DNA from: a virus
DNA: 29,556 nucleotides
Virus record (IMG/VR): IMGVR_UViG_3300033571_026852
Coordinates: 1-29,556 of that record
Strand: one strand, 5' to 3'
Translations under genes and position numbers: made by a program
Notes under the pieces: generated by a model
The model's input: only the letters and a program-made list of their open reading frames with translations
Database searches by the model: none
What the model was told of the DNA's origin: nothing
Shown: in pieces, positions 4,498 to 29,556 of the stretch
Numbering within the stretch: the first letter of the stretch is position 1
How the letters are laid out: the number at the start of each line of letters is the position of its first letter

Positions 4498-6816
4498 ATG
4501 GAAAAAAATAATAATCCAGAGATCGACAGATTAAACATGGAGACTTCAAAAAGTGTTGCTGAATCAATGAAGTCTTGGGGGGGTTTGGATGTTTCTAAAT
4601 CACCTGTTGCATCTTCTTTTCTTAATGGGTCAACCGCCCAAATGTTGAAAGAGTCTGCAAACAACGAATATTTTCCAAAATCAAACAATACGGTCTTCAG
4701 TTTTGGATTAGTTAATACCATCTCAGCTTTGCGTAATTCTACTCTTAACGAATTGCCTGCGGGAAAAATATTACTTGACAAATATGAGTCCTTGATTCTT
4801 CATAACGGAATTTCAGAAGCTTTTGTATTTGAATCTTTTTTGAACGATCTCAAGTCATTTTCTTGGGAGACCTCAGTTGTTTCTGTGGTGGAAAATTTGA
4901 ACCAAATATTTGCCAATAGAAGAAGGGAAATTGAAGTTGTTAAAGTTTACGAATCAATTAAGGCAGCTCCGGGAAAAGATTTGTTTTCTGATGCAACTTC
5001 TCAAATGAAGAATTGGTTAATTTCAGAAAATCATGTTTCTGATACATTGATTCACGGATTAAAAAGATTTGGATTCAATCCTTTGGTTAGAAACCTCGTT
5101 AGCTTCCTTTCACTCCACGAAAACAGCAATCCAAACAAGTTCAATCTTGGTGTTGATAATAACATTTGTCACGTAACTAATATTTATTCCCCAATAATGG
5201 TTACAGAAAGTGGATCCATTTTCTTTTCCAGTGGGAAATTTTTAGCAATTGACGATGCATCTAAAACTATCAATGAGTGTTCAGCTGAAGATGTTCCAGC
5301 AGATTTTCAAAACAAGGCTCTTGTCGTTGTAGATAGAGAGGTTAGAATTGATGGTGACAGAATTTCTTTGAATGTTGGTAAAAGTAAAGTTGACATTGTT
5401 TTCGAAAATGAACAAAAGAGAATTTACTTAGATGGCAAACACATTCATGAAGCAGATCTTCCAGCTGCTATTAGTGTGACCACAAACAACCTTTTAGAGA
5501 ACTCTAATTATAAAGCGGCTAAAGCTGCTTTCATTGCACAAACGGCCGATGAAATTGTAGATATCGATTTTGGTAAGAAGATCAAATCAAAATTATACGA
5601 AGGTGTGGAAGCAAACATTTTCAAGTATGAAAACAGAATTTACGTGCAAACAGTAAATCCTGCGATGCGCTTGAACAAGATTTACGAGTCAAACGCAACC
5701 CAGGCCATCAATATCATCAAAGAGTTCATGAAATATGACATTTCTGAGTCTCTAACAGAGTTCTTACAAGGGGAACAAGCTTTCTTAAGTGTCATGAAAA
5801 ATGATAAGAAAGAGATTGTTAAAAACATTGAACTTCTTGAGGCAGAACTGATCAAGATCACGAAAGTAAAATCAGAAAATCCTTTGATCGCAAATTCCAC
5901 ACAATTATTAAATCTAGAAGAGTCCCTAGAAAATGAACTTCAGATTCTAAAGGATAAATGGAACCAAATTAATGTTGGGATCAAAAGATTCGAAAGTTCA
6001 GCAAATGAAATTTCTGTTAACGAAGAAATGGGATATCCTATTGATACAGAGGTTAGAATCAAAAGAAACGGTAATAAGGGTAAAATCGTAGGTGTAGATG
6101 GTAGTTCTAAAACATATACTGTTTTATTTAAGGAAGGTAAAACCGGAGAATATTTCTTCTCTGATGTTGAGGATTTAGTTGATGAGGTAGATAACTACGA
6201 CATCCAAACTCCCGACATGAGTCTAGAATTTAGTGGTGAGGCTAATGAGGCTATGAACCAAGGATTCTCTACTGCACCTGCTCCAACAAGAGGGACAAAA
6301 AAAGATGGTGCTTTGATGGGACAAGCTCGTAAGAATATGGCAGCTGCTCCTTCGAAACAAACAAAGTCTAGCCCTAAATTCATCAACGATCCAAAAAATG
6401 CTAACATGGCCAGTGTTAAAGGTGAAGCTAAAAATTCTCCAGTGACTGGTTCAGCTAAAACGAAAAAACAAAACCTAGCTTCAGCTCCAGGTGGTAAAAG
6501 TGGTAAAGGCAAAAACTTTGCACAGGATCTAAACAATTCCAATCTTGCAAAGGCACCTTCGTCAGTCATTAAAAGTGCATCTAAATTTATCGAAGATTTA
6601 AAAGGTCACAACTTGGCTTTAAAAGAAAGCCAGAAGAACTCACACATTGAGAAAGCTCCTAAAGCCAAGATGCCAAAGCCAAAGAAGTTTATTGAAAAAG
6701 AAACAGATGCTAATTTGGCAGAAGCGCCAGGAAATCACAAAAGGAACAACAAGAAGTTTATGGAAGACGAAAAAAGAGCTACTCTTTCTTCTGCTCCTAA
6801 AACAAAAAAAAAGTAA
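4498..6816 (+). CDS. Large unknown, possibly virion-associated protein with basic repeat tail
   Basis: A 772-residue protein that I cannot assign to a family. Visible parts: a mixed alpha/beta N-terminal half; a helical, coiled-coil-like segment (about 440-500, rich in Leu, Glu and Lys); a small SH3/KOW-like stretch (about 515-560, VRIKRNGNKGKIVG then YTVLF); and a lysine-rich C-terminal tail (about 592-772) of 23-residue repeats with the core NLAxAP...KFIED. The basic tail could bind nucleic acid or capsid. The triplets I-S-E/A and I-Y-E/S fit the prohead protease rule and would be consistent with a head protein, but that is weak evidence. It follows a strong late-promoter candidate, which supports late expression. 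The ATG is chosen because it sits 18 nt after that element. Confidence 0.7.
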   Translation: MEKNNNPEIDRLNMETSKSVAESMKSWGGLDVSKSPVASSFLNGSTAQMLKESANNEYFPKSNNTVFSFGLVNTISALRNSTLNELPAGKILLDKYESLILHNGISEAFVFESFLNDLKSFSWETSVVSVVENLNQIFANRRREIEVVKVYESIKAAPGKDLFSDATSQMKNWLISENHVSDTLIHGLKRFGFNPLVRNLVSFLSLHENSNPNKFNLGVDNNICHVTNIYSPIMVTESGSIFFSSGKFLAIDDASKTINECSAEDVPADFQNKALVVVDREVRIDGDRISLNVGKSKVDIVFENEQKRIYLDGKHIHEADLPAAISVTTNNLLENSNYKAAKAAFIAQTADEIVDIDFGKKIKSKLYEGVEANIFKYENRIYVQTVNPAMRLNKIYESNATQAINIIKEFMKYDISESLTEFLQGEQAFLSVMKNDKKEIVKNIELLEAELIKITKVKSENPLIANSTQLLNLEESLENELQILKDKWNQINVGIKRFESSANEISVNEEMGYPIDTEVRIKRNGNKGKIVGVDGSSKTYTVLFKEGKTGEYFFSDVEDLVDEVDNYDIQTPDMSLEFSGEANEAMNQGFSTAPAPTRGTKKDGALMGQARKNMAAAPSKQTKSSPKFINDPKNANMASVKGEAKNSPVTGSAKTKKQNLASAPGGKSGKGKNFAQDLNNSNLAKAPSSVIKSASKFIEDLKGHNLALKESQKNSHIEKAPKAKMPKPKKFIEKETDANLAEAPGNHKRNNKKFMEDEKRATLSSAPKTKKK
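6337..6813 (+). repeat. 69-bp repeats coding a basic NLAxAP / KFIED tail
   Basis: Cores of the type N-[LM]-A-x-A-P begin at about 6337, 6403, 6472, 6541, 6610, 6643, 6712 and 6781. Spacing is 66-69 bp except one 33-bp step at 6610-6643, which looks like a half-unit inserted or lost. The linker usually holds K-F-[IM]-x-[DE] and many lysines. The copies differ at DNA level, so the array is old and selected. Confidence 0.75.
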
Positions 6817-7949: not shown

Positions 7950-8539
7950 AACCTTTCAATCAAAGATTTGAGGATTTTAGATTACAATCTTCCACTCTCA
8001 ATTCTCCAGGCGAGGATTCTTTTCTATTCTGGTTTGAAAATTACGTTAACCAAAGAAAAGAATTCAACCCTGATGAATTTCTAACGGGAAAGGTTTATTC
8101 TTTTGAGTATAATGACAAACTGGAAAAAAGTAAAAAATTCATAAATAAAAGACCCGTTGTTTTTTTTACCGGGTATTTCATAAAAGAAGAAAAAAATCTT
8201 TTCAGCGGTATTGATTTAATTCTTATGCCTCCGATGATCAGAATTCCATTCTTTACAAAAATTCAAAGTGTATTCGGTTCCCAGATCGAAACCAACATCA
8301 AAAAAGTTGAAGAGGGACAGGCAAAGAGTCAAATTCAGTTCAAAACTGACTATGAAACTCTCAACACCATATTAACTGGAATTCCCTTCAAGAATTCCTA
8401 CAGGGTGTGGGATCTTAAAAAAGTGAGAGACATTATAGAAATTCCTGTCGAAGAATGGACTAGAATAGTTTATCTTCACACTAGAGCAATTGAAGGGACC
8501 CCGATTGAAGAGATATATAAGAAAAATATGCAGTTTTAA
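7946..8539 (+). CDS. Conserved-looking unknown phage protein (197 residues)
   Basis: Begins at an ATG overlapping the gp4 stop and ends at a TAA whose last base is the first base of the portal start, so it is tightly coupled to head genes. Recognisable features are only general: GKVYSFEYND (48-57), a hydrophobic RPVVFFTGYF stretch (69-78), and GIDLILMPPMIRIPFF. This resembles a type of small protein often found among structural genes of T4-like phages, but I cannot name it. It does not resemble T4 gp53, which follows gp4 in T4. The portal promoter candidate lies inside its 3' end. Confidence 0.7.
   Translation: MKPFNQRFEDFRLQSSTLNSPGEDSFLFWFENYVNQRKEFNPDEFLTGKVYSFEYNDKLEKSKKFINKRPVVFFTGYFIKEEKNLFSGIDLILMPPMIRIPFFTKIQSVFGSQIETNIKKVEEGQAKSQIQFKTDYETLNTILTGIPFKNSYRVWDLKKVRDIIEIPVEEWTRIVYLHTRAIEGTPIEEIYKKNMQF
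8511..8521 (+). promoter_or_regulatory. Candidate late promoter (AGATATATAAG) for first portal gene
   Basis: An ATATATA core at 8513-8519, inside the 3' end of the preceding gene, ends 19 nt before the portal ATG at 8539. Spacing matches the elements before 4498, 16219 and 23783 (18, 18 and 19 nt). Being inside a coding region lowers certainty. Confidence 0.45.
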
Positions 8540-10128
8540 TGGCTGGATTTACTGACGGAAAGAAAACATTTTTTGATACAATAATCGAAAACATTAGGAA
8601 AGTAGGCAGTTTTGGAATGGCCTATGGAGATCTCGTTGTCAAAAATTCACAAGCCGTTGGGGTCACTGAAGCACAGTTTCTCAAAAAAGGAGGGATCAAA
8701 GATGAGGCTTTTCTATTTGGTTTAAAAAGATCTGATACAACAACAAAGCAATACATAGCTTATTTTGATAAAGATTTTAAGAACAAAAGACACTATGTAC
8801 AGGGTTTTGCACAAAACCCAGAGATTGAATTCATTCTTGATACAATTTGTGACGAATCGATAGTTTACGACGAGAAAAACTTTTGGGCTTATTTTTCTTT
8901 CATGCAACATGATGATGTGGATGAAGATGTTTCTTCTAAGGTTCAAAAAAGATATAAGGAAATCTATAATTTGTTTGGGTTTAACCAAGACATTCTTGCT
9001 TGGCACCTCTTCAGAAAATTTCTGGTCGAGGGAAATCTATCATTCGAAATCATATTTGACAAGAAAGGAAAAAACATCATAGGATTCAAGGAGATCGATG
9101 CTGCTTCATTAGTTCCCACAGTTGAGCAGCAACCAGATGGTTCTTATGTTGACATTTGGATTCAATACCCAGATAATCCGTCACTCACAAGAAAACTTTA
9201 TGACTCCCAAATTATCTACATAAGTTATGCAAAGGGTGGAGGAACCGCTGCTAGAATTAGTTATGTTGAGAGGCTTATTAGGTCATTTAACTTATTGAGG
9301 ATTATGGAGCACACCAGAATAATTTGGAACGTGATGAATTCCTCATTCAGGATGGCGATGACAGTTCCTATTGGGACCAAATCCCCACAGAAAGCCAAAC
9401 AAACGCTTGGTGAATTGATGAGCATTTACAAGGAGGACATAAGACTCAACACTGATAGTGGTGAATTGACTGTTGATGGACGTCCTAAGATTCAATTTTT
9501 CAAGAACTATCTCATGCCATCCTCACCGAATGGTACACCTGATATTCAGCCATTGACTGGAGCAGGAGACGCAACTGCTTTTTCTGACACGAAGGCTCTG
9601 CAATATTTTGCCAACAAACTTCGGATCGATTCTAAAGTTCCTGCCAGTAGGTTCGGTAGGGATGATTCTGGATCAGAGGGAACTATCACATTCTCTGCTG
9701 ATGGTCTAGACCAGGAGGAAATAAGATTTGGTAAGTTTATAAATCGTCTTCGCTCTATCTACCAAGAGATTCTGATGAAGCCCCTTTGGGTCCAATTTTG
9801 TTTGGACTTTCCACAAATGAAAAATGACTATCTAATCAAATCGGAGTTTGGATTAGATTACGTTAAAGAGAACATGTTCAAGGAGGCCAAAGAGATGGAG
9901 GTAATGACAGCAAGAAAAGACCAGGTCATCAAAATACTAGGCTTGAAAGATTCAGAAGGCAAGTCATATTTCAATTTGAAATTTGCCCTAGATAGATGGT
10001 TAGGGATGTCTAACCAAGATATGCTCGACAACGAGAAATTCAAAGAAGAAGCCAAAAAGAAAAAGGAAAAATCAGGAGAGGGAGAAAAGAAAGAAGGCGG
10101 TGAAAAAGAGGGAGAATTTACAATTTAA
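8539..10128 (+). CDS. 20: Portal vertex protein gp20-like, copy 1
   Basis: A 529-residue homologue of T4 gp20, which forms the dodecameric ring at the head vertex through which DNA is packaged and ejected, and which starts prohead assembly. Family signatures: AYFDKDF (74-80); EFILDTICDESIVYDEKNF (about 94-112); RIMEHTRIIWNVMNSSF; MTVPIGTKSPQKAKQTLGEL with YKEDI shortly after; and KPLWVQFCLDFPQMKND near the C-terminal third. It ends in a Lys/Glu/Gly-rich tail. A second, clearly paralogous portal gene follows after only 3 nt. Copy 1 has a middle segment with TPDIQPLTGAGDATAF that differs from copy 2. Nothing suggests decay in either copy. Confidence 0.88.
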   Translation: MAGFTDGKKTFFDTIIENIRKVGSFGMAYGDLVVKNSQAVGVTEAQFLKKGGIKDEAFLFGLKRSDTTTKQYIAYFDKDFKNKRHYVQGFAQNPEIEFILDTICDESIVYDEKNFWAYFSFMQHDDVDEDVSSKVQKRYKEIYNLFGFNQDILAWHLFRKFLVEGNLSFEIIFDKKGKNIIGFKEIDAASLVPTVEQQPDGSYVDIWIQYPDNPSLTRKLYDSQIIYISYAKGGGTAARISYVERLIRSFNLLRIMEHTRIIWNVMNSSFRMAMTVPIGTKSPQKAKQTLGELMSIYKEDIRLNTDSGELTVDGRPKIQFFKNYLMPSSPNGTPDIQPLTGAGDATAFSDTKALQYFANKLRIDSKVPASRFGRDDSGSEGTITFSADGLDQEEIRFGKFINRLRSIYQEILMKPLWVQFCLDFPQMKNDYLIKSEFGLDYVKENMFKEAKEMEVMTARKDQVIKILGLKDSEGKSYFNLKFALDRWLGMSNQDMLDNEKFKEEAKKKKEKSGEGEKKEGGEKEGEFTI

Positions 10129-10131
10129 AAG

Positions 10132-11772
10132 ATGGCAGGATTTATAGATAATTTAGGGAAAATCAACCCCAACGTTTCAAGAATCATTAAAACGATCAGT
10201 GGATTGGGATCCTTTGGAATGGAATACAAGGACATGGTGATTCAGGATTCGATGGCAATCGGTATTTCTGAAGCCAACATGAGAGAACGATTCGGATACG
10301 CTCAAGATGATGAGGATTTCATTTATAGTATTGCAGCGCAAGATTCATCTAACAGAAAATACATTGCCTATTTTGATAAGGACTACCCTGTAAGAAGGGA
10401 CTTTCTAAGAACTTTTGCGCTCAACTCCGAGATAGAATACATTCTAGATACTCTTTGTGACGAGGGGATAGTTTATGACGAGAAAAACTTCTTTTGTCAT
10501 CCCGCAACCATGAACATGGATTTGAAGGATGAGGTCATGAAAGCTCTAAGAAAGAATTTCAGAAAGCTCTACGTCCTACACAACTTCACCAACGGATTAA
10601 CAGCTTGGCAATACTTTAGACAACTTCTGGTAGAAGGATTTCTGGCATTTGAAATCATATATTCTAGTGATGGAAAGGATATAGTTGGATTCAAAGAATT
10701 GGATGCAACAAGTTTGACCCCTGCGGTTGAAAAGAAACCTGATGGTACCAGAGAGAGTGTCTGGTGGCAGTATTATGGAGAGACAACTAGACAAAGAAAA
10801 TTGTTGGATGCTCAATTGATTTACATTTCTTATGCTAAATCAAACACGGTTGCTAGAACATCTTATTGTGAAAGACTAGTTCGATCTTACAACTTGTTGA
10901 AAATCATGGAGCATTCTAGAATCATTTGGAATGTGATGAACTCCCAATATAGAATTAAGATGACTGTTCCAATAGGGAGCAAGTCTCCACAAAAGGCAAA
11001 GGAAACATTGGGAGAGCTAATGTCTGCTTATAAAGAAGATATTAAGCTAGACACAAGTTCTGGAGAACTTGCTATTAATGGTAGACCAGATTTGCAATTC
11101 TATAAGAACTATCTTTTTCCACAAGCTGGGGGAGAATCAACCAAGGTAGAGACGATCAATGCACAAGGTCCCAATCTCAACATAATGGATTCTGTAGTTT
11201 ATTTCTATAATAAACTCAGAATGGATTCTAAAATTCCCTATAATAGATTCTCAGCAAGATGGGGATCTGGTTCTGCAGCAGCTTATAAAATACCAGCCGA
11301 TGGTTCTGAAAGGGATGAAGTGCGTTTTGCCAAATTCATAACTCGTTTAAGATCTATTTTCCAAGAGATCATGGTGAAGCCACTTTGGATCCAGATGTGT
11401 TTGGACTTTCCCAATTTAAAAAATGATTCAGAGTTTAGAAGCCAAATAGGAATCAAATATGAAAGCGACAACACGTTTGGTGAATCTAGAGAAATTGAGC
11501 AACTACTCAAGCACATAGATTTTATTAATTCATTGGGTGAAATCAAAGAAACCGTCAATGAAGAGGAGGTACAATATTTTGACCAAGACTTCTTAATTGA
11601 AAGATGGTCGGGTCTTTCATATGAAGACATAATGGCTAACAAAAAATATAAGCAAACAGAGAAGGTTGAATCGGCTCCTGCTGAAGCTCCAGAAGGAGGA
11701 GCAGAGGAAGAGGCACCAGCGGCCACTCCTGAAACCGAAGCCCCTGCTGAAGGAGGAGAGGAGACAGCTTAG
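10132..11772 (+). CDS. 20: Portal vertex protein gp20-like, copy 2
   Basis: A 546-residue paralogue of the preceding portal gene, sharing all its signatures: AYFDKDY, YILDTLCDEGIVYDEKNF, KIMEHSRIIWNVMNSQY, MTVPIGSKSPQKAKETLGEL and KPLWIQMCLDFPNLKND. It differs from copy 1 in the N-terminal 60 residues, in the segment around QAGGESTKVETINAQG, and in the C-terminal tail, which is rich in Ala, Pro and Glu (APEGGAEEEAPAATPETEAP) instead of Lys/Glu. Both copies look intact and co-transcribed. Mixed rings, a division of labour, or one copy being an assembly or regulatory variant are all possible. Which copy builds the vertex cannot be told from sequence. Confidence 0.88.
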   Translation: MAGFIDNLGKINPNVSRIIKTISGLGSFGMEYKDMVIQDSMAIGISEANMRERFGYAQDDEDFIYSIAAQDSSNRKYIAYFDKDYPVRRDFLRTFALNSEIEYILDTLCDEGIVYDEKNFFCHPATMNMDLKDEVMKALRKNFRKLYVLHNFTNGLTAWQYFRQLLVEGFLAFEIIYSSDGKDIVGFKELDATSLTPAVEKKPDGTRESVWWQYYGETTRQRKLLDAQLIYISYAKSNTVARTSYCERLVRSYNLLKIMEHSRIIWNVMNSQYRIKMTVPIGSKSPQKAKETLGELMSAYKEDIKLDTSSGELAINGRPDLQFYKNYLFPQAGGESTKVETINAQGPNLNIMDSVVYFYNKLRMDSKIPYNRFSARWGSGSAAAYKIPADGSERDEVRFAKFITRLRSIFQEIMVKPLWIQMCLDFPNLKNDSEFRSQIGIKYESDNTFGESREIEQLLKHIDFINSLGEIKETVNEEEVQYFDQDFLIERWSGLSYEDIMANKKYKQTEKVESAPAEAPEGGAEEEAPAATPETEAPAEGGEETA

Positions 11773-14638: not shown

Positions 14639-15772
14639 ATGATAACAGCAATAATTGATAGTAACTACATTTTCCATAAAACGTTTGGTATTTTTTCAGG
14701 TTTTGGAGCTAAGTCCCCTGGGGATGTTCTTTCCTCAGAGGGGGACAGGAACATGTTCGTTAGAAAGGTTATGACAGATCTCTGTTATTCATTAAATCAA
14801 ATTCCTGACTTGCATCGTGTTATTTTTTGCAAGGATTCTCGATCCTGGAGGAAAGATTATCAAATTACACGAAGTGTTTACAAGGAAAGCCGGGTAAAAA
14901 CAGAAGGTGTCGATTGGGGTTCTTTTTTTAAGTTGCTTGAAGAGTTGGGAGAATTTCTTTCCGAGAATGGTTATATTTATAGTACATGTGGGGGTGCGGA
15001 AGGCGACGACTTGATTTGGGCATGGTCAGAACATTTAAAAGATTCTGATGATGATATCATAGTAATTACTGGTGACAAAGATATGCACCAATTGGTTAGG
15101 GCATCGAATAGCAACTGGACTTGTATTTGGAACAGCCAGTCAAAAAACAACAAGTTTACTGTTCCACAAAATTGGAGATTAGAGGAGGAAAAGGAACCAA
15201 CAATTTTTGATGTTACCCCCTCTTCTGGATCCAACGATCACAAGCTCAAACATTTAATTTCCTCTTGCACTATTGAAGAAATAGACACCAAAGAATTTGT
15301 TTTCAAAAAGATTTTAATGGGAGATAGGAAAGACGATGTTCCTGGTGTATTCCCCCATGTCAACAAAGGGGGAAAGAATTCCAACATCGCTGAAGGTAAA
15401 GCTCAAAAGATTTGGAATTTATATGTGCAATCTCCTTGGTCAAGCTTATCAATGGAGGAACTTTGGGACAATGATGAATTCCTCACTTGGCTTGCAGGTT
15501 TGTCTTTAAGACTAATTAACCAAACGGATAACTCGGAAAATCGTGCGATCTTCAAACAGTTTTATGAGGAAAATGGAAAACTTGTTTGGCTCAACCATAG
15601 AGCGCTTCCAGAAGATATGGTTCTGAAGTTAAGAGAACATGTCTCTAAGTTAGATGCACAATCTCCTGCCAGAAATCCCCTGATTGACAAGAAGACTATG
15701 ATTGAAAAGTCACCTTGGTCCGATGACTCAAACACTCCACAAGCTTTCGATCCTTTTGCTTTTTTTAACTGA
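14639..15772 (+). CDS. rnh: 5'-3' exonuclease / RNase H of FEN family
   Basis: A 377-residue FEN-family nuclease like T4 RNase H, which removes RNA primers and short flaps in lagging-strand synthesis. Metal-binding acids are seen in order: D7 (IIDSNY), D66 (FCKDSRSWRKDY, with the basic R71/K72/Y74 set), E121/D123/D124 (GAEGDDLIW), D146/D148 (ITGDKDMHQL), and a helix-hairpin loop region GDRKDDVPG (228-236). All expected acids are present, so it should be active. It abuts the kinase gene and its stop overlaps the next start by one base (TGATG). It is somewhat longer than T4 Rnh (305), mainly in the middle and C terminus. Confidence 0.9.
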   Translation: MITAIIDSNYIFHKTFGIFSGFGAKSPGDVLSSEGDRNMFVRKVMTDLCYSLNQIPDLHRVIFCKDSRSWRKDYQITRSVYKESRVKTEGVDWGSFFKLLEELGEFLSENGYIYSTCGGAEGDDLIWAWSEHLKDSDDDIIVITGDKDMHQLVRASNSNWTCIWNSQSKNNKFTVPQNWRLEEEKEPTIFDVTPSSGSNDHKLKHLISSCTIEEIDTKEFVFKKILMGDRKDDVPGVFPHVNKGGKNSNIAEGKAQKIWNLYVQSPWSSLSMEELWDNDEFLTWLAGLSLRLINQTDNSENRAIFKQFYEENGKLVWLNHRALPEDMVLKLREHVSKLDAQSPARNPLIDKKTMIEKSPWSDDSNTPQAFDPFAFFN

Positions 15773-16173: not shown

Positions 16174-16191
16174 GGTTGGCTGTTGAAGTCC

Positions 16192-16201
16192 GGATATATA
16201 C
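16192..16201 (+). promoter_or_regulatory. Candidate late promoter GGATATATAC before fibre gene
   Basis: This 10-mer is identical to that at 4471-4480 and has the same 18-nt spacing from the ATATATA core to the ATG (16219). It lies in the 45-nt gap after the replication block, where a switch from early or middle to late transcription would be expected. Confidence 0.65.
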
Positions 16202-16218
16202 ACCAAACTTCTTCCGGA

Positions 16219-19200
16219 ATGCAGGAATTAAATCAAATCAGTATCAAACAATTATTGGCCTCGAACACCATAGGGGCTAATAACTCGATAACCAACTCCA
16301 ATTTTGCTCAGATAAATGAAGCACTAAGACTTATCAATGGTGCTTTTGGTATTTCTATCCAAGAAAGATCTATGAACTTTCCTTCGGGAAAGCTCAATGT
16401 CGGAAGTCTGAAGTCCAATTTGGTAAGACTTCCTATTCAAGGCAATACTGCTATCCAATTAAACGGAAGTAATGGAGAAGTTCTTGCAAATGGATTGAAC
16501 ATCACCAACGATGCTTTCATCGGAAGACACGCCATTGTTGGGAACGCAAATACAGGAGGAAGACTAAGATTAATTTTAGATAGAACTTATCCCAATCCTC
16601 TTTTACAGCCAGGACTTCCTGGTCAAGTCAGATACATTGGGGACGACTTTGAAGGATATACCGAATATGGAGAAGTTCAAGCAACATTTTCTTTCACGAT
16701 TGATTCAACAGGAACAACGGGACAAAGCATAAGTGTTGTTTATAATGGCACAACTGCTGGAACAGCTTCTTGGACATTCAACAATACAATCACGGCTCAG
16801 GAGCTTACTAACGCCATATTGACCAACACCACAGGTCCTTGTTTAGCTTCTTACAATCTCAATACCGTTACGATTATAGCCTTAGCAGGTGCAGGATCAT
16901 CTGCAAATGGTGACACAGTCGTACTTTCTGGTCCTTTGCCAGTCAGTCCAACTTCAGGCTCAATGGCCGGTGGTGTTGATGGTGTTGGCACTTGGGTTTC
17001 ATTCACAGGCGTAACCGGTACTGCAGGTCCGACCGGACCAACTGGTCCTGGTGGTGGTCCCGCTGGTGTCACAGGTGCAAAAGGTGCAACAGGAAATGCT
17101 GGGCCTACTGGTCCAGTGGGTGCCACTGGCGTTGGAATAACAGGTCCTACTGGATTAGGACCAACAGGACCAACAGGAATTGCAGGACCGACTGGTGAAA
17201 CTGGACCTCAAGGTCCACAAGGACCAAAAGGGACTGTAGGTAACACTGGACCAAAAGGAGATGCAGGTGTGACAGGAGCAAAAGGAGCAACTGGTGCCAG
17301 TGTAACAGGTGCCAAAGGAAGCACTGGAGTAACCGGACCAGCAGCCACGGGTCCCACAGGTCCTACTGGCACAAATTGGACATCTGGTATTGGCGCTCCA
17401 TTTAACCCAGCGAATCCGGGCGACCTTTATCTAGATGGTCAAACTGGTAATGTGTTTGTTTATTCGTCAGGTGTTTGGAATCTCTCTTACAATTTAAAGG
17501 GATTGACAGGCACAACTGGGGCAACTGGTGATGGCGTTACAGGAGCAACAGGAACCAATGGAACAACCGGGGCCACAGGCCCAACTGGAGCAGGATCAAC
17601 AGGACCAACTGGACCAGTAGGACCTACCGGAGCAGCAGGATCTATTGGCACGATGCCTTATTTAGATCTTTCTAATAATTCTATCTCACAAAGCATATCT
17701 TCCGGTGGTAATTTACCGGTGAAGTTCGATACCACTAATTTAATTGATTCTTTATTCTTCGCAACTGGAGATTATGTCCCTTCTGGAATCACAGGCACTT
17801 ACTTCGAAACTTTAGTTGCTGGAAAATATTTTGTGAGCTATAAAGTTGGATTAGATAACACAGATGCGAACGCTTCCTCTCTAATTACTACAAGATTGAT
17901 GAGAAGTGTTTCTGCTCCAGTAGAGGTTGCAAATCTGAGAGCATTCAAAACTATCGAGAATGTAGCAGGGTCCGAAGCCCCTTTCGAAACTGTTATAGTG
18001 ACTGGAATTATTGATTCCGCTGCAAACGACAAGTATTGGGTAAAAGTTGAATATGATGCAGGTGGTGTAGGAACTGTAAATGTAACATTAGGAGACACTG
18101 GTATTTCAGTACTTTCACTTTTAGGGCAAATGGGACCTACTGGCCAATCCGGCATCACTGGTCCTACTGGACCTGGGGGAGGTCCGGCAGGACCTGCCGG
18201 ACCAACAGGAGCAGCGGGTGAAACTGGTCCAACTGGTTCTGCTGGAGCCACTGGTCCAACTGGAGGTGGGGCAACAGGACCAACAGGAGCAGCTGGTGCC
18301 ACTGGACCAACAGGATCGGTCTCTACAGTGTCTGTGAGTTATGCAACTTTTTATGCAGCTCTGACAGGAGGAACTTTGACCCCTGGGGCTTTGTATTTGA
18401 TCAATGACTTCGCCACCACTCATTACATTTTGGAGTGTGCCTCTCCCACAACCAACACAGGAACAACCGAACCAATTTATGTGCTTGCAACAAGTGCAAC
18501 TACAATTGATAAAAGAGTTATTTCTAGCATCTATCCTCAAGATTTGATCTATTGGGACCCTGATCCAGCTAGTTTTTACAACGATGAAGCCTTCACAACT
18601 GCAGCAGCTCCTACTACAATCATTTCAGGATTCAAGGGGGGAATTACTCATCGCAAAGACACCACTAGAAATATAGAGGCTTACTATGATTGGAGAGCAT
18701 TCGTTTTCAGAAGGTGGAGATTGGATTCTGCGATTTACACTGCTACTTGGACAAGTTTGGTTTCTTATTCAGTTGGAGCTATAGTGACAGCCGGTTCAAC
18801 ACTTGATTATTTCTTGTGTCTAATCGCAGATCCCAGCTCTAGTTTGAATCCTTCTGCGGGATCCAACGGAAGGTGGATCAAGATATTCGAGGCCGGTGCC
18901 GAGTACGTGTTTGCTCAACCATATAACCACGTAATCAACTTGCCAGACGGCACAACGTTTACTGTGCAAGTAGACACTTCTGACTTTAATGATTATAAAT
19001 CCGTTGATGTGACCGAATTCGACGATATAACGAACATTTCAATTGCTACATTGGCTGTCCCCCAGTCAAAAACGTCGACATGGACATCCACCCCTGTCTA
19101 CTCATCAAAGATACCAAACAACATCATAGTTGGGGAGGCAACAGCAGGAAAGAAAGTAACTGATGTATCCTTTGATGGACATTCCAACGTGAATACACTC

Positions 19201-19728
19201 ATACTAGGCTCGGCTACGACTGCTTTATCAGGAGCTAGGTTTCAGTCCTCTTATTTCAACATATTTACACAAACAATACCAAGTGGCTCCACAATCACAA
19301 GTTCTGACTTCAAGTTTTTGTTTCAGGTTATTTTAGTTGGAACAATAAATTATTCTAAAATAATGAATTTCCAGGAAGCTATCATACAAGGATCTTTGTC
19401 GAATACGCATATTACAGCTTGTGAATCGATCACCTCATCGCGAAACATTCTTGGAAGTAATTTGACACGAATATCTGGGTCTTACCTTTACTCCAGAGTG
19501 GAATATTCCGATATTATGGATTTCAGTAACTGTTACTTAGGAAAGAAGTCAACAGCGACAATATTTCAGTTTACAGATTTGTATAGTGTCGATGGGGAGG
19601 ATTTCGAGACATCCACTTACATTTATTCAGCAAGTTATGCCAAGAAAGTCATGGGTACTACTGGAGCTTCTTATGTTCTTTACATAGATAACAATGGAAC
19701 TGTTCAAACAGATTTGACTACAAATTAA
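16219..19728 (+). CDS. Collagen-like phage fibre / receptor-binding protein
   Basis: A 1169-residue structural protein. Residues 1-150 look like an attachment region ([19 protein letters not shown]...). Three Gly-X-Y collagen-like stretches follow (about 265-384, 429-478 and 638-699). Between the second and third is a C1q/TNF-like beta sandwich (about 479-634, with [13 protein letters not shown] and [10 protein letters not shown]) like those that cap collagen stalks in spore and phage fibres. After the third comes the module shared with the fibre gene at 1-3135 (YLINDF, then GGITHRKD and [11 protein letters not shown]), a CBM5/12-like segment (about 839-888, [14 protein letters not shown]), and a beta-rich C terminus. 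I chose the ATG at 16219 over TTG 16183 because the latter would contain the promoter element. Likely role: binding host surface polymers. Confidence 0.82.
17011..17370 (+). repeat. Collagen-like Gly-X-Y stretch 1 of fibre gene
   Basis: About 120 residues of Gly-X-Y triplets, mostly GPT, GAT, GAK and GPQ, coded by GC-richer sequence than the surroundings. A short break, [20 protein letters not shown], follows before stretch 2. Confidence 0.85.
17503..17652 (+). repeat. Collagen-like Gly-X-Y stretch 2 of fibre gene
   Basis: About 50 residues of Gly-X-Y triplets ([12 protein letters not shown]) leading directly into the C1q/TNF-like domain. Confidence 0.85.
18130..18315 (+). repeat. Collagen-like Gly-X-Y stretch 3 of fibre gene
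   Basis: About 60 residues of Gly-X-Y triplets following the TNF-like domain and leading into the module shared with the fibre gene at the left edge. Confidence 0.85.
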
Positions 19729-23782: not shown

Positions 23783-24538
23783 TTGAAAAATATTTTAAAG
23801 TTTTCCACTTGGGTTCTTGAAAAAAACGAGAGAGATGATTTTTACAAGAAAGAACTCAATCCCTCATTTTGGACAGGTGACAAGTTCGACCAGGACATTA
23901 GAGAGAAACTCCTAAGTATAGCACAAGACTTCTATAAAACTCTAAGTCTAGATATTCCTATTGCTGACATTCAACTAACAGGATCGTTAGCAAACTATAA
24001 TTGGACTGACAAGTCAGATTTGGATGTACATATATTAATTGATTTTACGAAGATTGATGACAACTTAGATCTCGTGAAAAAAGCTTTAGATGGTCCAAGA
24101 CTAATTTGGAACATGAGGAATAAGGTGATTTTGAGGGGACATGATGTTGAACTTTACATACAAGACATTGATTTTCCACATACAGCTTCAGGTCTCTTCT
24201 CATTAAAGAATAATAGTTGGATCAGGATTCCTAAATTCAATCCCCCAGAAATAGATTACAATGATGTTGACAAGAAATTCGATGGGATAGTTTCTGAGAT
24301 TCTCGAAATGGAGAACCTCCTGAGCTCTGCGAACTTCTCATCTGTGTCGGAAAAAGAAATCTACCAATACGGAAGAAAGATTAAATCAAAAATTATGAAC
24401 ATGAGAATTGAGGGACTTGCTAGGGAGGGAGAATTTTCTATCGAAAATTTAGTATTCAAAAAATTAAGGAACGAAGGATATATAGAGAAAATAATTGAGC
24501 TCATCTCAAAAGCCTACAAAAACATCTACAATGAATAA
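23783..24538 (+). CDS. Nucleotidyltransferase-fold protein
   Basis: A 251-residue protein with the DNA polymerase beta-like nucleotidyltransferase signature: LTGSLANYNWTDKSDLDVHI (65-84), with G67-S68 and the metal pair D79/D81, and a likely third acid, E123, in GHDVELYIQD. The fold transfers an NMP group to a protein, RNA or small molecule; the target is not evident. The C-terminal third is helical and Lys/Glu-rich. The start is TTG at 23783, the first start in frame and 19 nt after a promoter candidate. The last 8 nt overlap the next gene. Its neighbours are head genes, so it may be expressed late. Confidence 0.75.
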   Translation: MKNILKFSTWVLEKNERDDFYKKELNPSFWTGDKFDQDIREKLLSIAQDFYKTLSLDIPIADIQLTGSLANYNWTDKSDLDVHILIDFTKIDDNLDLVKKALDGPRLIWNMRNKVILRGHDVELYIQDIDFPHTASGLFSLKNNSWIRIPKFNPPEIDYNDVDKKFDGIVSEILEMENLLSSANFSSVSEKEIYQYGRKIKSKIMNMRIEGLAREGEFSIENLVFKKLRNEGYIEKIIELISKAYKNIYNE

Positions 24539-27080
24539 CAAGAAAGATCTTTACAAAGGGTACAACCCCATTTACGAAAGTATGATGTCTTCGATGATGG
24601 AAGACAAAGAGAAGGGAACTGATAAGAAGGCAGCGAATCTTGATTCCATGTCTTTAATTTCAACTGTGATGAACACTTTCTTCACAATACTTCTAAACTC
24701 TAAAATGGAAAATCTTAAAACTCCAAGGGGTTTTCAGGAAGTTAAAAACAAAATCTTAGGGACCAACAACTTTGGGTCATTTAGACAATACATCATCTCA
24801 GTCTTGGATTCTTTGGCAGCCATGGATCTAGCTCAGAAGGAAGCTTACAAGAAGAATATTGAGTTTGTGACTCAAATCTTTTCACAACTTGAGCCTTCTT
24901 TGTCTGATCAAAAGATCTTCAATGCTCTCAAGAAAGAGTCAGTAACAGGACTTCTTACTAACTTTGAGGAAGATCTTAAGGAAAGAGAAAAACAAATGCA
25001 AAAAACCAATCCTAAGTTATTTGGTGAGGTTGTAAAACAAGGCTTGGTGGTAAAAGAGGCAAAGAGAACAGGTGAGGAAACAAGTGTAGAAGATGCTGAG
25101 TTTAGAGGAAAAGCATTTAACAAATCAAAAGAGTCATTAGATGCGGCGAATGCTTTTGTAGGCACGATTGATAGAGATAGACAAGTTGCTGTACTAAAGA
25201 ATAACGAAGATATTAAGAGATATTTGGAGATTGCCCAAAACTTAAGCAAAAGAGCTCAAGATCTCCAAATGATAGACAGAAAGGGTATAAGAAACATTGT
25301 TACCCCATCTGGAGAGATTAAGAGGAATGATTACATGAGACAGCAAGACTCTTTGATCAATGACATTATTAGACAGAAAAAAGAATATCAAAGAATCAAA
25401 GATGGAATTCTTAAATCAGGGGGATTAACCACACCTGAACCAGTTATTCCTGTGTGCCCCCCAGGTCAAGTTTTTGATCCATCTAAAGGAATTTGTGTTC
25501 CTGCGAAAAAACAAGATGGAGAATCACAAACTGACCAAGGAGGTAAAAAGAAGCCACCAGTTCCAGTTCCAGTCAAGACTTGCCAATTTCCCATTACTAT
25601 TGGGCAAAAATGCGAGCAGGTTGGTGATGTACAAAACAAATTGATGGAACTAATCCCATCTGTGAAAAGTTATCTAGAAAAGAAAGGTGGTGCAGACAAA
25701 ATTTACGGAAAAGGCACTGCTGCAGTTTGTAATATTGTTTGGGGATATCTTTCTGGGCAAACAGGACAAGCTCTGACTTCAGACCTTGACCAAGCTATGT
25801 ATGATGCAATTATGGCATTGACAGAAGGTGATATAGATACATCCCCAGAAATCTTTGGAATGGCAATCAAAGACAGTAAAAACTGGGAAATGAGCATCCA
25901 AGAGAAATTGCAAGAAAGAGAGGAAATCAAGGGAGCACCAGTTCTTTCATTTGATGATTTCTTCTCTGTAATTGAAGAATCTCTTCATTTTGCAAAATTA
26001 CAAGAAAACAATCCTCTCGATAGATTGGCTAAAGGCAAAGAGAAGAAAGAAGAGACTAGTCCTAGTACGGTGGCACCAGTCGATGCAAAAGCAGAGATCA
26101 AAGCAAAGAAACTAAAAGATAAGTGCATCAAAGATTCCTTGGCTGTGGGAAAAGTTTTGCCCTGTATGGCAGGAACAGGACCTGTACCGGGACCATCAGG
26201 AGAATCAGGAGCTTCAGGAGAGTCTGGAACAACTGGTCAAGAAGCAAAATGGAAAGGACTTAAACCAGTTAATGATGGTGCATACACTATTTACTATGAT
26301 GAAAGCTGGAGCCAATGGTGGGGTGATTTTGCAAAAGGGGCTTTGATAGGTGGAATTATTATTGGTGCCGTAGTAATGACTGGAGGAGCAGCTATAGGTG
26401 CAGCTCTAGGAACTGGAGCACTAGCAGGAGCTGGCTCTGCAGGTGCGGCTCTGGTTACAAGTTCAACAGGGGCATTGACCTTGAGCCTTGGAGCTATTGG
26501 AGGTGGAACTATAGGAAAATGGGCAGGAAGCGATAGAAAGCCAGTTACCATATTAGTCTATAATGGGTATATCGAACCAATAGCAGTGAAAGCGATGGCG
26601 AGAGGAATTTACAACAGTTTAACTGGAACAGTTTCTTCTCAGGATCTTCTAGCAATTTATTCTACTCTCATTCTTTGTAGAGGTACTTTTACAGAATCAA
26701 ATGGTAAGGCCGTTTCGGTTTGGGAGAAAATAAAGTCAGACTACACTTCATTTGATGGGGATAACTTACAAACAGACATTTCAGATATAGAAACCACCGA
26801 AGGTGTTGCTGGATTCTTTAAGGATATAGGAACAGATATGGATGATATTCCAGGATTTCCAAAAAGCTTTAAAACTAAGGATCCTACACAAGGTGGAGTT
26901 GAAGCCACTTTTGAAACGGCTAAAGATGCATGTGATGATGCGGTGCAAAGGCTTAATGACAATAAAGGAAAGCTTGAATCGAATTTAACTTTTATATCTG
27001 AGGAGGATTTGGAATTGCTATCAGAGGGAATGGAAGAGATCACTTCTGGAGTAGAAGAAGAATATTTAGAAGAAGATTAA
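24531..27080 (+). CDS. Large unknown protein with glycine-rich membrane segment and peptidoglycan-binding-like region
   Basis: An 849-residue protein starting at ATG 24531 (overlapping the previous stop); an upstream TTG is less likely. Residues 1-310 are helical and charged. Around 349-425, CEQVGDVQNKLMELIPSVK and IYGKGTAAVCNIVWGYLSG resemble the PG_binding_1 pattern (GDxVxxLQ...GxYGxxT). A short Gly-X-X collagen-like break (GPSGESGASGESG) follows, then a strongly hydrophobic Gly/Ala-rich stretch (about 597-667, GALIGGIIIGAVV onward) able to cross a membrane. The C terminus is acidic. IYE/S near the N terminus and IEE/S fit the prohead protease rule. An internal virion protein that acts on the cell envelope during DNA entry is an attractive but unproven reading. 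It sits directly before the protease-scaffold gene. Confidence 0.6.
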   Translation: MNNKKDLYKGYNPIYESMMSSMMEDKEKGTDKKAANLDSMSLISTVMNTFFTILLNSKMENLKTPRGFQEVKNKILGTNNFGSFRQYIISVLDSLAAMDLAQKEAYKKNIEFVTQIFSQLEPSLSDQKIFNALKKESVTGLLTNFEEDLKEREKQMQKTNPKLFGEVVKQGLVVKEAKRTGEETSVEDAEFRGKAFNKSKESLDAANAFVGTIDRDRQVAVLKNNEDIKRYLEIAQNLSKRAQDLQMIDRKGIRNIVTPSGEIKRNDYMRQQDSLINDIIRQKKEYQRIKDGILKSGGLTTPEPVIPVCPPGQVFDPSKGICVPAKKQDGESQTDQGGKKKPPVPVPVKTCQFPITIGQKCEQVGDVQNKLMELIPSVKSYLEKKGGADKIYGKGTAAVCNIVWGYLSGQTGQALTSDLDQAMYDAIMALTEGDIDTSPEIFGMAIKDSKNWEMSIQEKLQEREEIKGAPVLSFDDFFSVIEESLHFAKLQENNPLDRLAKGKEKKEETSPSTVAPVDAKAEIKAKKLKDKCIKDSLAVGKVLPCMAGTGPVPGPSGESGASGESGTTGQEAKWKGLKPVNDGAYTIYYDESWSQWWGDFAKGALIGGIIIGAVVMTGGAAIGAALGTGALAGAGSAGAALVTSSTGALTLSLGAIGGGTIGKWAGSDRKPVTILVYNGYIEPIAVKAMARGIYNSLTGTVSSQDLLAIYSTLILCRGTFTESNGKAVSVWEKIKSDYTSFDGDNLQTDISDIETTEGVAGFFKDIGTDMDDIPGFPKSFKTKDPTQGGVEATFETAKDACDDAVQRLNDNKGKLESNLTFISEEDLELLSEGMEEITSGVEEEYLEED

Positions 27081-27104
27081 TTTATTGCCGTAGATATATA
27101 AAAG

Positions 27105-29198
27105 ATGGAAAACAATAAAAACCTGGACTATGTCCTGATTTTGGAGAAATCCTCGAAGAATCTTTCTAGTATGAAGAAAGATGGAGAGTATTTTCTGGAA
27201 GGAGTAGCGGCTGTATTTGGAGTCGAAAATTCTAATCATAGAATTTACGAAGAGAAAGAATACTTGCCTCACTTGGACTATTTGAAGAAGAAGATTGACC
27301 AGAATAGACTTGTTGGTGAATTAGATCATCCGAAGGAATTTGATGTTTCTTTAAAAAATATTTCTCACATCATCATAGACTTAGAGTATGACAAGAGCAA
27401 TCGTCTGGTGAAAATCAAAGTTAAGTTGTTGGATACTCCAGCAGGAAGAATAGCTAAAAGTCTTGTTGATGCTGGTATTCCGATCTCTATTTCTTCGAGA
27501 GCAGCTGGAAATGTAAACAATGATAAGAAGGTGGAGATTAAAAAGATTTTCACGTATGATCTTGTGGCAGATCCTGGATTCGAAAATGCACAATTAGAAA
27601 GAGTTCAAGAGAGTTTATATGAGAGTTTAGGATTCGAATCTTTCAATGTCGAGCAAAAAAATTCAATAATTTCCACTCTTACTAATATAAATGAAAGCTT
27701 TGGATTGAGAAAAAATTCTAATGTGCAGATATATAGAATCAAAGACTCTGAGAAAATATCCAGACTTTTAAAAGAAAACATAACAAATAATTCTAAGAAT
27801 ATGGACAATAACTTTGTCACTGCAGAAGAACTAAACGAATATTCTCTCATCCTTAAGAAGGAAATGAATTCTTTAAGAAACGAGATAAAATCAGCTAATA
27901 GAGGATCTGGTGGAAGCTCTGATTTAGAGGAAAGAGTTAAAAGGCTAGAGAAATATTCTGAGTATTTGGCTGAAAATTTGGAGTCTTCAATTAAGTATGG
28001 TGATTATTTAGCTGAGAACTTGGAAGGATCAATTTCTTACAATAAATATCTAGCTGAAAATCTGGACAAGGCTATTTCATACGCTAAATATCTTGCAGAA
28101 CATGTTGATGGGAATATCTCTTATTCCGAGTATATTGCAGAAAACCTAGATAACAATATTGCTTACAGTAAATATTTGGCTGAAAACTTGGATAAGAACA
28201 TTTCTTATTCCGAATACTTGGCTGAAAATCTAGACAAGAATATCTCTTACTCTGAATATCTTGCTGAGAACTTAGATCAGAACATTTCTTATTCTGAGTA
28301 TCTTGCAGAGAATCTTGACAGAAACATTTCTTATTCGGAATACTTGGCTGAAAATCTCGACAAGAACATTTCTTACTCTGAATATCTAGCTGAGAATTTA
28401 GACAGAAACATTTCTTACTCTGATTATCTAGCTGAGAACTTGGATAAGAACATCTCTTACTCAGATTACTTGGGAGAAAATCTAAATGGTAATATTAACT
28501 ATTCTGAATATCTTGCTGAGAAAGTTAAATCTGGAATTGAATACACTCAATATTTAGCTGAGTCAATTAACAACAGAGGAGGAATCGCTCAGGATAATCT
28601 CGGGAAACAAGTTAACGAATCAGTTTCTACAGGAAAGAGAACTTCAGGATTCTCAGGTGATTACACTTCATTATCAAGCAAAGTTGACCAATTAATTGAG
28701 TCACTAAATACAAATAAAACCAACGAGCTCATTAGTGAGAACAAATATTCTTTCTTGAAGCTAGTTGATGACAGAACTAAGAAAGGTTTCCTTTCTTTGA
28801 ACGAGGCCGAAAAACAAAAGGTCGTGAAAGCTCTAAACGAGTCGAACTACAATTCGGGTACGGATGTAGCTCAAATTATGGGGTCTGCTTTAACTGAACA
28901 AGCTAAATCAGGTGAAAAATTCCTAGACATGATGCCAGAAGATTTGGTACCTGTTTGGGCGTCTCTGAATGAATCACAGAAAGGGTCTATTATCGCCCAG
29001 AGTAAGTTTTATCATTTAGATACTCCTTATCAGATCAACCACTTCTGGAGAACCCGTCCAGGTTTCAATACACCTGCAGCTAGCTTAGAGCAGTTGAACG
29101 AGTCCCAGACAATCCAACCTGATGCGGTAAGAACAGGGGTAAGTAATGCTTATCTCCAAAACATCGCAGCAGAATTGGATAAAAGATTCAAAAAATAA
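27105..29198 (+). CDS. 21: Prohead protease fused to repeat-bearing scaffold-like protein (gp21-gp22-like)
   Basis: A 697-residue protein. Residues 1-170 are a T4 gp21-type prohead protease: EGVAAVFGVENSNHRIY, GELDHP with catalytic His75, ISISSR with Ser130 or Ser131 as nucleophile, and YDLVADPGFENAQL. T4 gp21 is a separate protein of about 212 residues. Here the chain continues into a helical region: residues 284-493 are fifteen 14-residue repeats (YSEYLAENLDKNIS), followed by a C-terminal domain ending near HFWRTRPGF, as expected for a scaffold core protein like gp22, whose gene normally lies between gp21 and gp23. No separate gp22 gene exists here. Many [LI]xE/[SNA] triplets, including LAE/N in most repeats and INE/S and LNE/S, fit the protease's own cleavage rule. 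An in-frame ATG at 27801 could give scaffold alone. Confidence 0.85.
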   Translation: MENNKNLDYVLILEKSSKNLSSMKKDGEYFLEGVAAVFGVENSNHRIYEEKEYLPHLDYLKKKIDQNRLVGELDHPKEFDVSLKNISHIIIDLEYDKSNRLVKIKVKLLDTPAGRIAKSLVDAGIPISISSRAAGNVNNDKKVEIKKIFTYDLVADPGFENAQLERVQESLYESLGFESFNVEQKNSIISTLTNINESFGLRKNSNVQIYRIKDSEKISRLLKENITNNSKNMDNNFVTAEELNEYSLILKKEMNSLRNEIKSANRGSGGSSDLEERVKRLEKYSEYLAENLESSIKYGDYLAENLEGSISYNKYLAENLDKAISYAKYLAEHVDGNISYSEYIAENLDNNIAYSKYLAENLDKNISYSEYLAENLDKNISYSEYLAENLDQNISYSEYLAENLDRNISYSEYLAENLDKNISYSEYLAENLDRNISYSDYLAENLDKNISYSDYLGENLNGNINYSEYLAEKVKSGIEYTQYLAESINNRGGIAQDNLGKQVNESVSTGKRTSGFSGDYTSLSSKVDQLIESLNTNKTNELISENKYSFLKLVDDRTKKGFLSLNEAEKQKVVKALNESNYNSGTDVAQIMGSALTEQAKSGEKFLDMMPEDLVPVWASLNESQKGSIIAQSKFYHLDTPYQINHFWRTRPGFNTPAASLEQLNESQTIQPDAVRTGVSNAYLQNIAAELDKRFKK
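27954..28583 (+). repeat. Fifteen 42-bp repeats coding 14-residue YSEYLAENLDxNIS units
   Basis: The array is exactly in register: unit 1 starts at 27954 and unit 15 at 28542. Central units 6-12 are nearly identical in protein but vary in codons, and the outer units are more diverged, as in arrays that grow and shrink from the middle. Fourteen residues equal two heptads, so a continuous helix or coiled coil is likely. Thirteen of fifteen units carry Leu-Ala-Glu; unit 5 has Ile-Ala-Glu and unit 13 Leu-Gly-Glu. Confidence 0.95.
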
Positions 29199-29209
29199 GA
29201 TCTATAAAA

Positions 29210-29556
29210 ATGCAACTCTTAAATCAAAACGAGATCTACGAAACGTGGTCTCCAATCATTGAGAGCAAGACTGGCATGACTGATCGTACAAAAGTTGAAT
29301 GGCTTTCTAAATATTGTCATTTCCACTCATTGAACGAATCGGCTGGAGCCTATAACTCTCTTTCTGTTCTAAACGGCATGGGTAACATCCTGCCTCCAGG
29401 TAACTATTCAGGTGGTGCTGCTGGTGCAGGTCCTGCTGGTTTTTACTACAACAACACTTACAACGCTGGTACTCCATATGTTGGTTCTGGTGATAAGTTC
29501 CCTTCATTACTTCCATTGGCTATTCAGGTAGCTGCTAAAACCGTTGGTTTTGACAT
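29210..29556 (+). CDS. 23: Major capsid protein gp23-like, 3' end outside window
   Basis: The first 115 codons are present. The N-terminal region matches T4-type major capsid proteins: WLSKYCHFHSLNES (31-44), NGMGNILPPG (54-63), then GSGDKFPSLLPLAIQVAAKT and VGFD. This is the main shell protein, whose N-terminal peptide is removed by the prohead protease during maturation. LNE/S at 41-44 fits the [LI]xE rule and would leave a mature chain starting at Ser44; IIE/S at 16-19 is a second candidate. Codon use shifts to GGT, GCT and AAC, as expected for a very highly expressed gene. The start is 11 nt after the protease-scaffold gene, preceded by TATAAAA and no Shine-Dalgarno sequence. Confidence 0.93.
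   Translation, partial: MQLLNQNEIYETWSPIIESKTGMTDRTKVEWLSKYCHFHSLNESAGAYNSLSVLNGMGNILPPGNYSGGAAGAGPAGFYYNNTYNAGTPYVGSGDKFPSLLPLAIQVAAKTVGFD

Follow-up and report, generated by a model that had tools for sequence, protein, structure and literature searches.

The locus examined here raises the question of how the ratio of prohead protease to scaffold can be set when both are encoded in one reading frame. In phage T4, gp21 and gp22 are made from two genes, and their copy numbers are about 580 for gp22 versus about 55-100 for gp21 (PMC9958956, PMC5694885). In the window, the whole stretch of 29,556 nucleotides that was analysed (IMGVR_UViG_3300033571_026852, itself a 29.6-kb genome fragment), a gp21-type protease runs into a scaffold-like region within a single 697-aa frame (Table 1). 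The original prediction pointed out that such a fusion would fix protease and scaffold at 1:1 unless scaffold were also made alone. The sequence points to the second possibility, through an internal ATG and a nested promoter-like element, so that the concern about a 1:1 ratio is probably answered inside the gene by an additional scaffold-only product. We propose, with a probability of roughly 0.8, that protease and scaffold are produced here from one nested gene working like herpesvirus UL26/UL26.5.

Table 1. Features of the protease-scaffold locus, in window coordinates.
Feature	Position	Strand	Basis or remark
Fused protease-scaffold ORF, 697 aa	27105..29198	+	ATG start, one frame without a stop; fusion present in all complete relatives
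gp21-type (S77/S80) protease domain, residues 1-165	27105..27599	+	Pfam/PHROG matches, Foldseek, invariant residues
Protease-scaffold junction, LxE-type sites after E169, E173, E197	27609..27698	+	Motif in 43/43, 43/43 and 41/43; R-site-like, putative cleavage
Predicted scaffold-alone product, 465 aa, in-frame ATG (Met233)	27801..29198	+	Conserved ATG, A-rich leader, synonymous constraint
15 tandem 14-residue repeats, consensus SYSEYLAENLDKNI, residues 283-492	27951..28580	+	Perfect register; predicted helical; one LxE per unit
Conserved C-terminal helical domain, residues 519-697	28659..29195	+	Common to Mahaphage, Lak and pT24 fusions and a separate PAU frame
LNE/S site at E666, 31 aa from the C-terminus	29100..29105	+	Motif in 42/43; herpesvirus M-site-like, putative cleavage
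Major capsid protein precursor, 5' part	29210..29554	+	LNE/S propeptide site at E43
GATATATA preceding the fused gene, candidate late promoter	27093..27100	+	RATATATA <=60 nt upstream in 48/53 relatives; strand-specific enrichment
GATATATA inside the gene, candidate nested promoter	27728..27735	+	73 nt upstream of the internal ATG

A protease fused in one frame across the clade

The N-terminus of the fused protein matched Peptidase_S80 (3e-9), Peptidase_S77 (2e-8) and the head maturation protease family phrog_207 (3e-37), with Pfam scores above the curated cut-offs (PF20034, 36.8 versus 23.4 bits; PF03420, 34.1 versus 27). The T4 gp21 structure 5JBL was the best PDB match of the AlphaFold2 model (Foldseek E 6e-9, TMt 0.66), and herpesvirus proteases followed it as weak structural matches. 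Residues H75, S130, S131 and D152 were invariant in 43 relatives, and the complete gp21-type domain with His75 and Ser130/131 that had been read from the letters alone was thereby confirmed. Short additional matches to gp21-type protease lie outside the fused gene in the contig of L057 (58051-58302) and in LR756501 (11386-11787), and a weak one lies in LR756500 (154951-155127).

In scans of IMG/VR, the protease was recovered at 80 loci and the C-terminal domain at 34, the two sets overlapping in part. All complete copies in the window clade were single ORFs of about 560-720 aa (53 after removal of near-copies, <95% identity), and no copy with protease and scaffold split was found among these complete relatives. 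A sequencing error hiding a stop or start between the domains is therefore excluded, and the joining of protease and scaffold-like region is not only borne out for the window but extends across the clade. An assembly artefact that joined two genes can be practically dismissed: nothing was found in its favour, and deposited phage genomes and dozens of independent contigs all show the same frame. Nearly all relatives have the capsid gene next after the fused ORF, and approximately 0.1-1 kb lies between the two in L072, L074, L077 and L079. In the window, where the fused protein had been placed directly before gp23, the gap is indeed only 11 bases, and a capsid gene starting at position 29210 leaves room for no gene in between. 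Further upstream, the window encodes two adjacent paralogues of the T4 gp20-type portal (8539-10128 and 10132-11772, both phrog_213), of which T4 has one, and a predicted nucleotidyltransferase-type protein (23783-24538, phrog_36119) just upstream of the head genes.

Among phage records, the fusion was also found in LR756500-LR756504, in Lak phages and in pT24, and the protease was encoded separately in PA5oct, XacN1, Atu_ph07, S-SSM7, Va1, V45v66, PAU and T4. Listeria phage LIS04 carries a 559-aa "peptidase" just before its capsid gene, in which a gp21-type protease is likewise fused, but to an unrelated, coiled-coil-like tail that lacks the C-terminal domain. A protease tree of 37 rows required two changes of state, with LIS04 on the split side and PAU inside the fused group as sister to pT24, both placements being unsure because of long branches. 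The simplest reading would be one old fusion in the group comprising the window clade, Mahaphage, Lak and pT24, followed by a later split in PAU, and LIS04 probably represents a separate fusion event.

The scaffold-like half and its cleavage motifs

The identification of the second half of the protein as gp22, made at first from its place, stands as far as position before the major capsid gene is concerned, but sequence homology to T4 gp22 was not detected. For the repeat and C-terminal parts, hhalign gave a probability of about 1-2%, and hmmsearch, including 26 gp22 sequences, gave nothing significant; "gp22" thus denotes here a place and a role, not descent. The repeat-rich helical region of the original prediction was resolved into fifteen 14-residue units, and structure prediction, suggested there as a check, returned helical repeats and a C-terminal domain, albeit with a poor full-length model over the repeats (mean pLDDT 60) and moderate confidence for the C-terminal domain (pLDDT 69). 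A fold search of the PDB with the C-terminal domain gave no match, and its significant BFVD matches comprised one unnamed protein and a further protease fusion, pT24 being weaker.

The C-terminal domain occurs once per record in 16 related records, including genomes of 462-735 kb and Lak genomes, and no second scaffold with the same domain was present in them; the absence of a separate gp22 candidate noted earlier applies to the 29.6-kb window. In addition, its profile matched (5e-12) a 98-aa frame of Sphingomonas phage PAU that lacks an annotation and is followed by the capsid gene, indicating that PAU encodes the same domain separately from its protease, at the place of gp22. This frame and the final part of gp155, which are read in different frames, overlap at a run of nine A (JQ362498; L113, 6306-7330), reflecting either a sequencing error or a frameshift. 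The lack of detectable T4 gp22 homology and of a PDB fold match would be compatible with an internal head protein or some other function for the repeat and C-terminal region, with a diverged scaffold located elsewhere. We consider this improbable, since the region adjoins the capsid gene in the window clade, is strongly enriched in cleavage motifs, is a separate frame at the gp22 position in PAU and is present in a single copy per related record. The position, the density of cleavage motifs and the PAU arrangement support the assignment of the C-terminal part as a scaffold. Taken as a whole, the original prediction of a fusion before gp23 holds, without demonstrable gp22 homology of the second half.

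The T4 protease gp21 cuts after L/I-X-E (PMC9026906). The fused protein contains 29 such motifs (z=5.5), and only two other window ORFs exceeded a z of 3 (4498-6816, 3.3; 14639-15772, 3.1). The 861-aa protein encoded upstream (24495-27080), considered as an additional core protein, was rejected, as LxE was not enriched in it (z=0.6). Any triplet is inflated by a repeat, so the raw enrichment of LxE was not relied on by itself, and a test on held-out columns took its place. When distant repeats were found by a matrix ignoring the LAE columns, the hidden columns were still LIV in 97% and E in 92%. The repeat copies differ from one another with saturated synonymous sites (pS 0.80 versus pN 0.30), which indicates that the array is old and has been kept at the protein level. 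Conservation of LxE may also have a structural reason, as the motif suits a helical repeat. In the capsid protein, the column of the E43 propeptide site was [LM]xE in 53/53 sequences, and the LxE-type sites of the fused and capsid proteins may be cut by the gp21-type protease.

A predicted internal start and its promoter-like upstream element

An ATG matching Met233 was present in 52 of the 53 relatives (<95% identity), just before the conserved motif FVTxEELNxYS, in a linker that is otherwise variable in sequence and length; the sole relative without an ATG at the expected place was L081. In the Mahaphage-class and Lak proteins, an in-frame ATG also precedes the same motif. The mean A content of the 20 nt upstream of the Met233 ATG was 0.62, equal to that of true starts (0.62), versus 0.39 for 380 other in-frame ATGs, and A was found at -15 and -14 in 52/52. 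Part of this A-richness arises because the linker is rich in N and K, and the effect of synonymous choice alone was modest (mean z 0.98). Synonymous conservation over residues 221-241 was in the top 1-5% of windows among 14 close relatives. A second stretch of raised synonymous conservation was observed inside the scaffold, at residues 563-592 (28791-28880).

The second feature is the octamer GATATATA, a candidate late promoter of this phage group according to its distribution. Its sense-strand copies cluster 20-60 nt upstream of ORFs, where 71 were counted for 288 ORFs, versus 0.35 per 20-nt bin inside ORFs. The six sense copies in the window (4472, 8512, 16193, 24477, 27093 and 27728) all lie 12-75 nt before a gene start, provided that the ORFs at 16183 and 24495 begin at their first ATG. 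The former (16183-19728) encodes a collagen-like, GPTG-rich tail fibre, whose likely start is the ATG downstream of the listed TTG, after the element at 16193. The copy that precedes the fused gene in the window is just 12 nt away from the full-length ATG, which would leave little room for a leader if it acts as a promoter.

Exact copies of GATATATA inside ORFs of at least 150 aa were rare: across 430 kb of coding sequence there were 34, of which 31 fell in the 110 nt preceding the internal ATG. The expected number at this place was 0.04 from the rate elsewhere and 1.3/52 under synonymous resampling, compared with the 31 observed, these counts being drawn from related sequences and hence not independent. 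The internal copy is found at -67 to -79 in 27 relatives and at -34 to -37 in four others, and such a shift from one lineage to another speaks for selection acting on the motif itself. In all 27 of the former, Ile209 is ATA and Tyr210 is TAT, a uniformity matched by no other conserved Ile or Tyr codon. The exact internal element was missing in 21/52 relatives, seven of which have GATAAATA and one GATAGATA, at -34 to -43.

These data bear on two alternatives to a nested gene with its own promoter. The first is a simple fusion with no second product, in which every scaffold subunit would carry a protease at a ratio of 1:1. It is favoured by the single open frame, the one feature strictly demonstrated, and by P2 gpO, a single protein with a protease at its N-terminus and a scaffold domain at its C-terminus (PMC7552001). 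A conserved internal ATG, its leader, the synonymous constraint and the clustering of GATATATA are, however, not expected from it, and it appears unlikely, if slightly less so than a non-scaffold function of the second half. The other alternative, that the short product arises by internal translation of the long mRNA and that GATATATA serves another role, deserves appreciably more weight, although we rate it well below even odds. The leader features are found at the ATG itself, the exact motif is missing in part of the relatives, and the annotation of T4 gene 21 includes an internal start of translation (gp21'); on the other hand, nearly all in-frame copies of GATATATA fall at this place, and the motif shifts between lineages yet stays upstream of the ATG.

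With its parts in the same order as in UL26, a predicted internal start and a promoter-like element, the locus is best explained by a UL26/UL26.5-like division of labour. According to this nested-gene reading, the full-length protein would be the minor form, whose scaffold tail would carry the attached gp21-type protease into the prohead. Most of the scaffold, free of protease, would be translated from Met233 on a second transcript that starts at the internal GATATATA, so that the ratio would depart from 1:1. The 14-residue repeats would form the helical body of the core. Upon closure of the shell, the protease would cut after (L/I)xE: cuts at the junction (E169/E173/E197) would free the protease itself, one cut per repeat would reduce the core to peptides, and further cuts would fall close to the C-terminus (E666) and, in the capsid protein, at E43. 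Towards the wider picture we lean only slightly. In it, a large clade of giant T4-type phages would rely for head assembly on a nested protease/scaffold gene that contains a late promoter of its own, the scaffold being an array of the protease's cut sites, on the UL26/UL26.5 plan; the fusion would be old and common to the window clade, Mahaphage, Lak and pT24, with a probable later split in PAU.

Comparison with known systems

The fusion is not unique to the window, and entries of Tenacibaculum phages pT24 and PTm1 had been deposited earlier under scaffold/protease names; the new part would be the predicted nested gene, and no description of such an arrangement in T4-type phages was found in the open PMC literature. 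The present analysis places a strong candidate in several giant-phage groups, suggests how one gene can set the protease:scaffold ratio, and names a promoter-like element found across the clade.

The locus shares with T4 gp21 and gp22 a homologous protease, the position before gp23 and an LxE-rich scaffold, but T4 uses two genes and the scaffolds have no detectable homology. In pT24, the protease is fused to the same C-terminal domain in a 527-aa protein named "prohead core scaffold (and protease)", without the 14-residue array, and the 564-aa PTm1 protein is likened to that of the window by its name and a weak fold match. The Mahaphage-class (LR756501/502/504) and Lak fused proteins, of 581-807 aa, share the fusion and the in-frame ATG but are unannotated, and the array is absent in Lak. 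In lambda, Nu3 is nested in the C frame and the short form is produced by internal translation. Lambda C/Nu3 and P2 gpO also have protease and scaffold in one frame, with proteases of families other than the gp21 type.

The closest parallel is HSV-1 UL26, which has an N-terminal protease followed by an R site, carries an M site 25 aa short of its end and contains the start of UL26.5 midway, the long form accounting for approximately 10% of the scaffold (PMC12474303). Both systems have an N-terminal protease of related fold, the structural match being only weak, and a C-terminal scaffold in one frame; the window locus would resemble the herpesvirus gene further in a predicted in-frame nested start for scaffold alone, in a candidate promoter of the short product (GATATATA in 31/52 relatives) and in putative cleavage sites after the protease and near the C-terminus (approximately 31 aa from the end). 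It differs in its phage host, its gp21-type specificity motif and its 14-residue array of cleavage motifs. The likeness is one of working, with no claim of scaffold descent from the herpesvirus or gp22 scaffold, and the locus would thus represent a phage parallel of UL26/UL26.5 built on a related protease.
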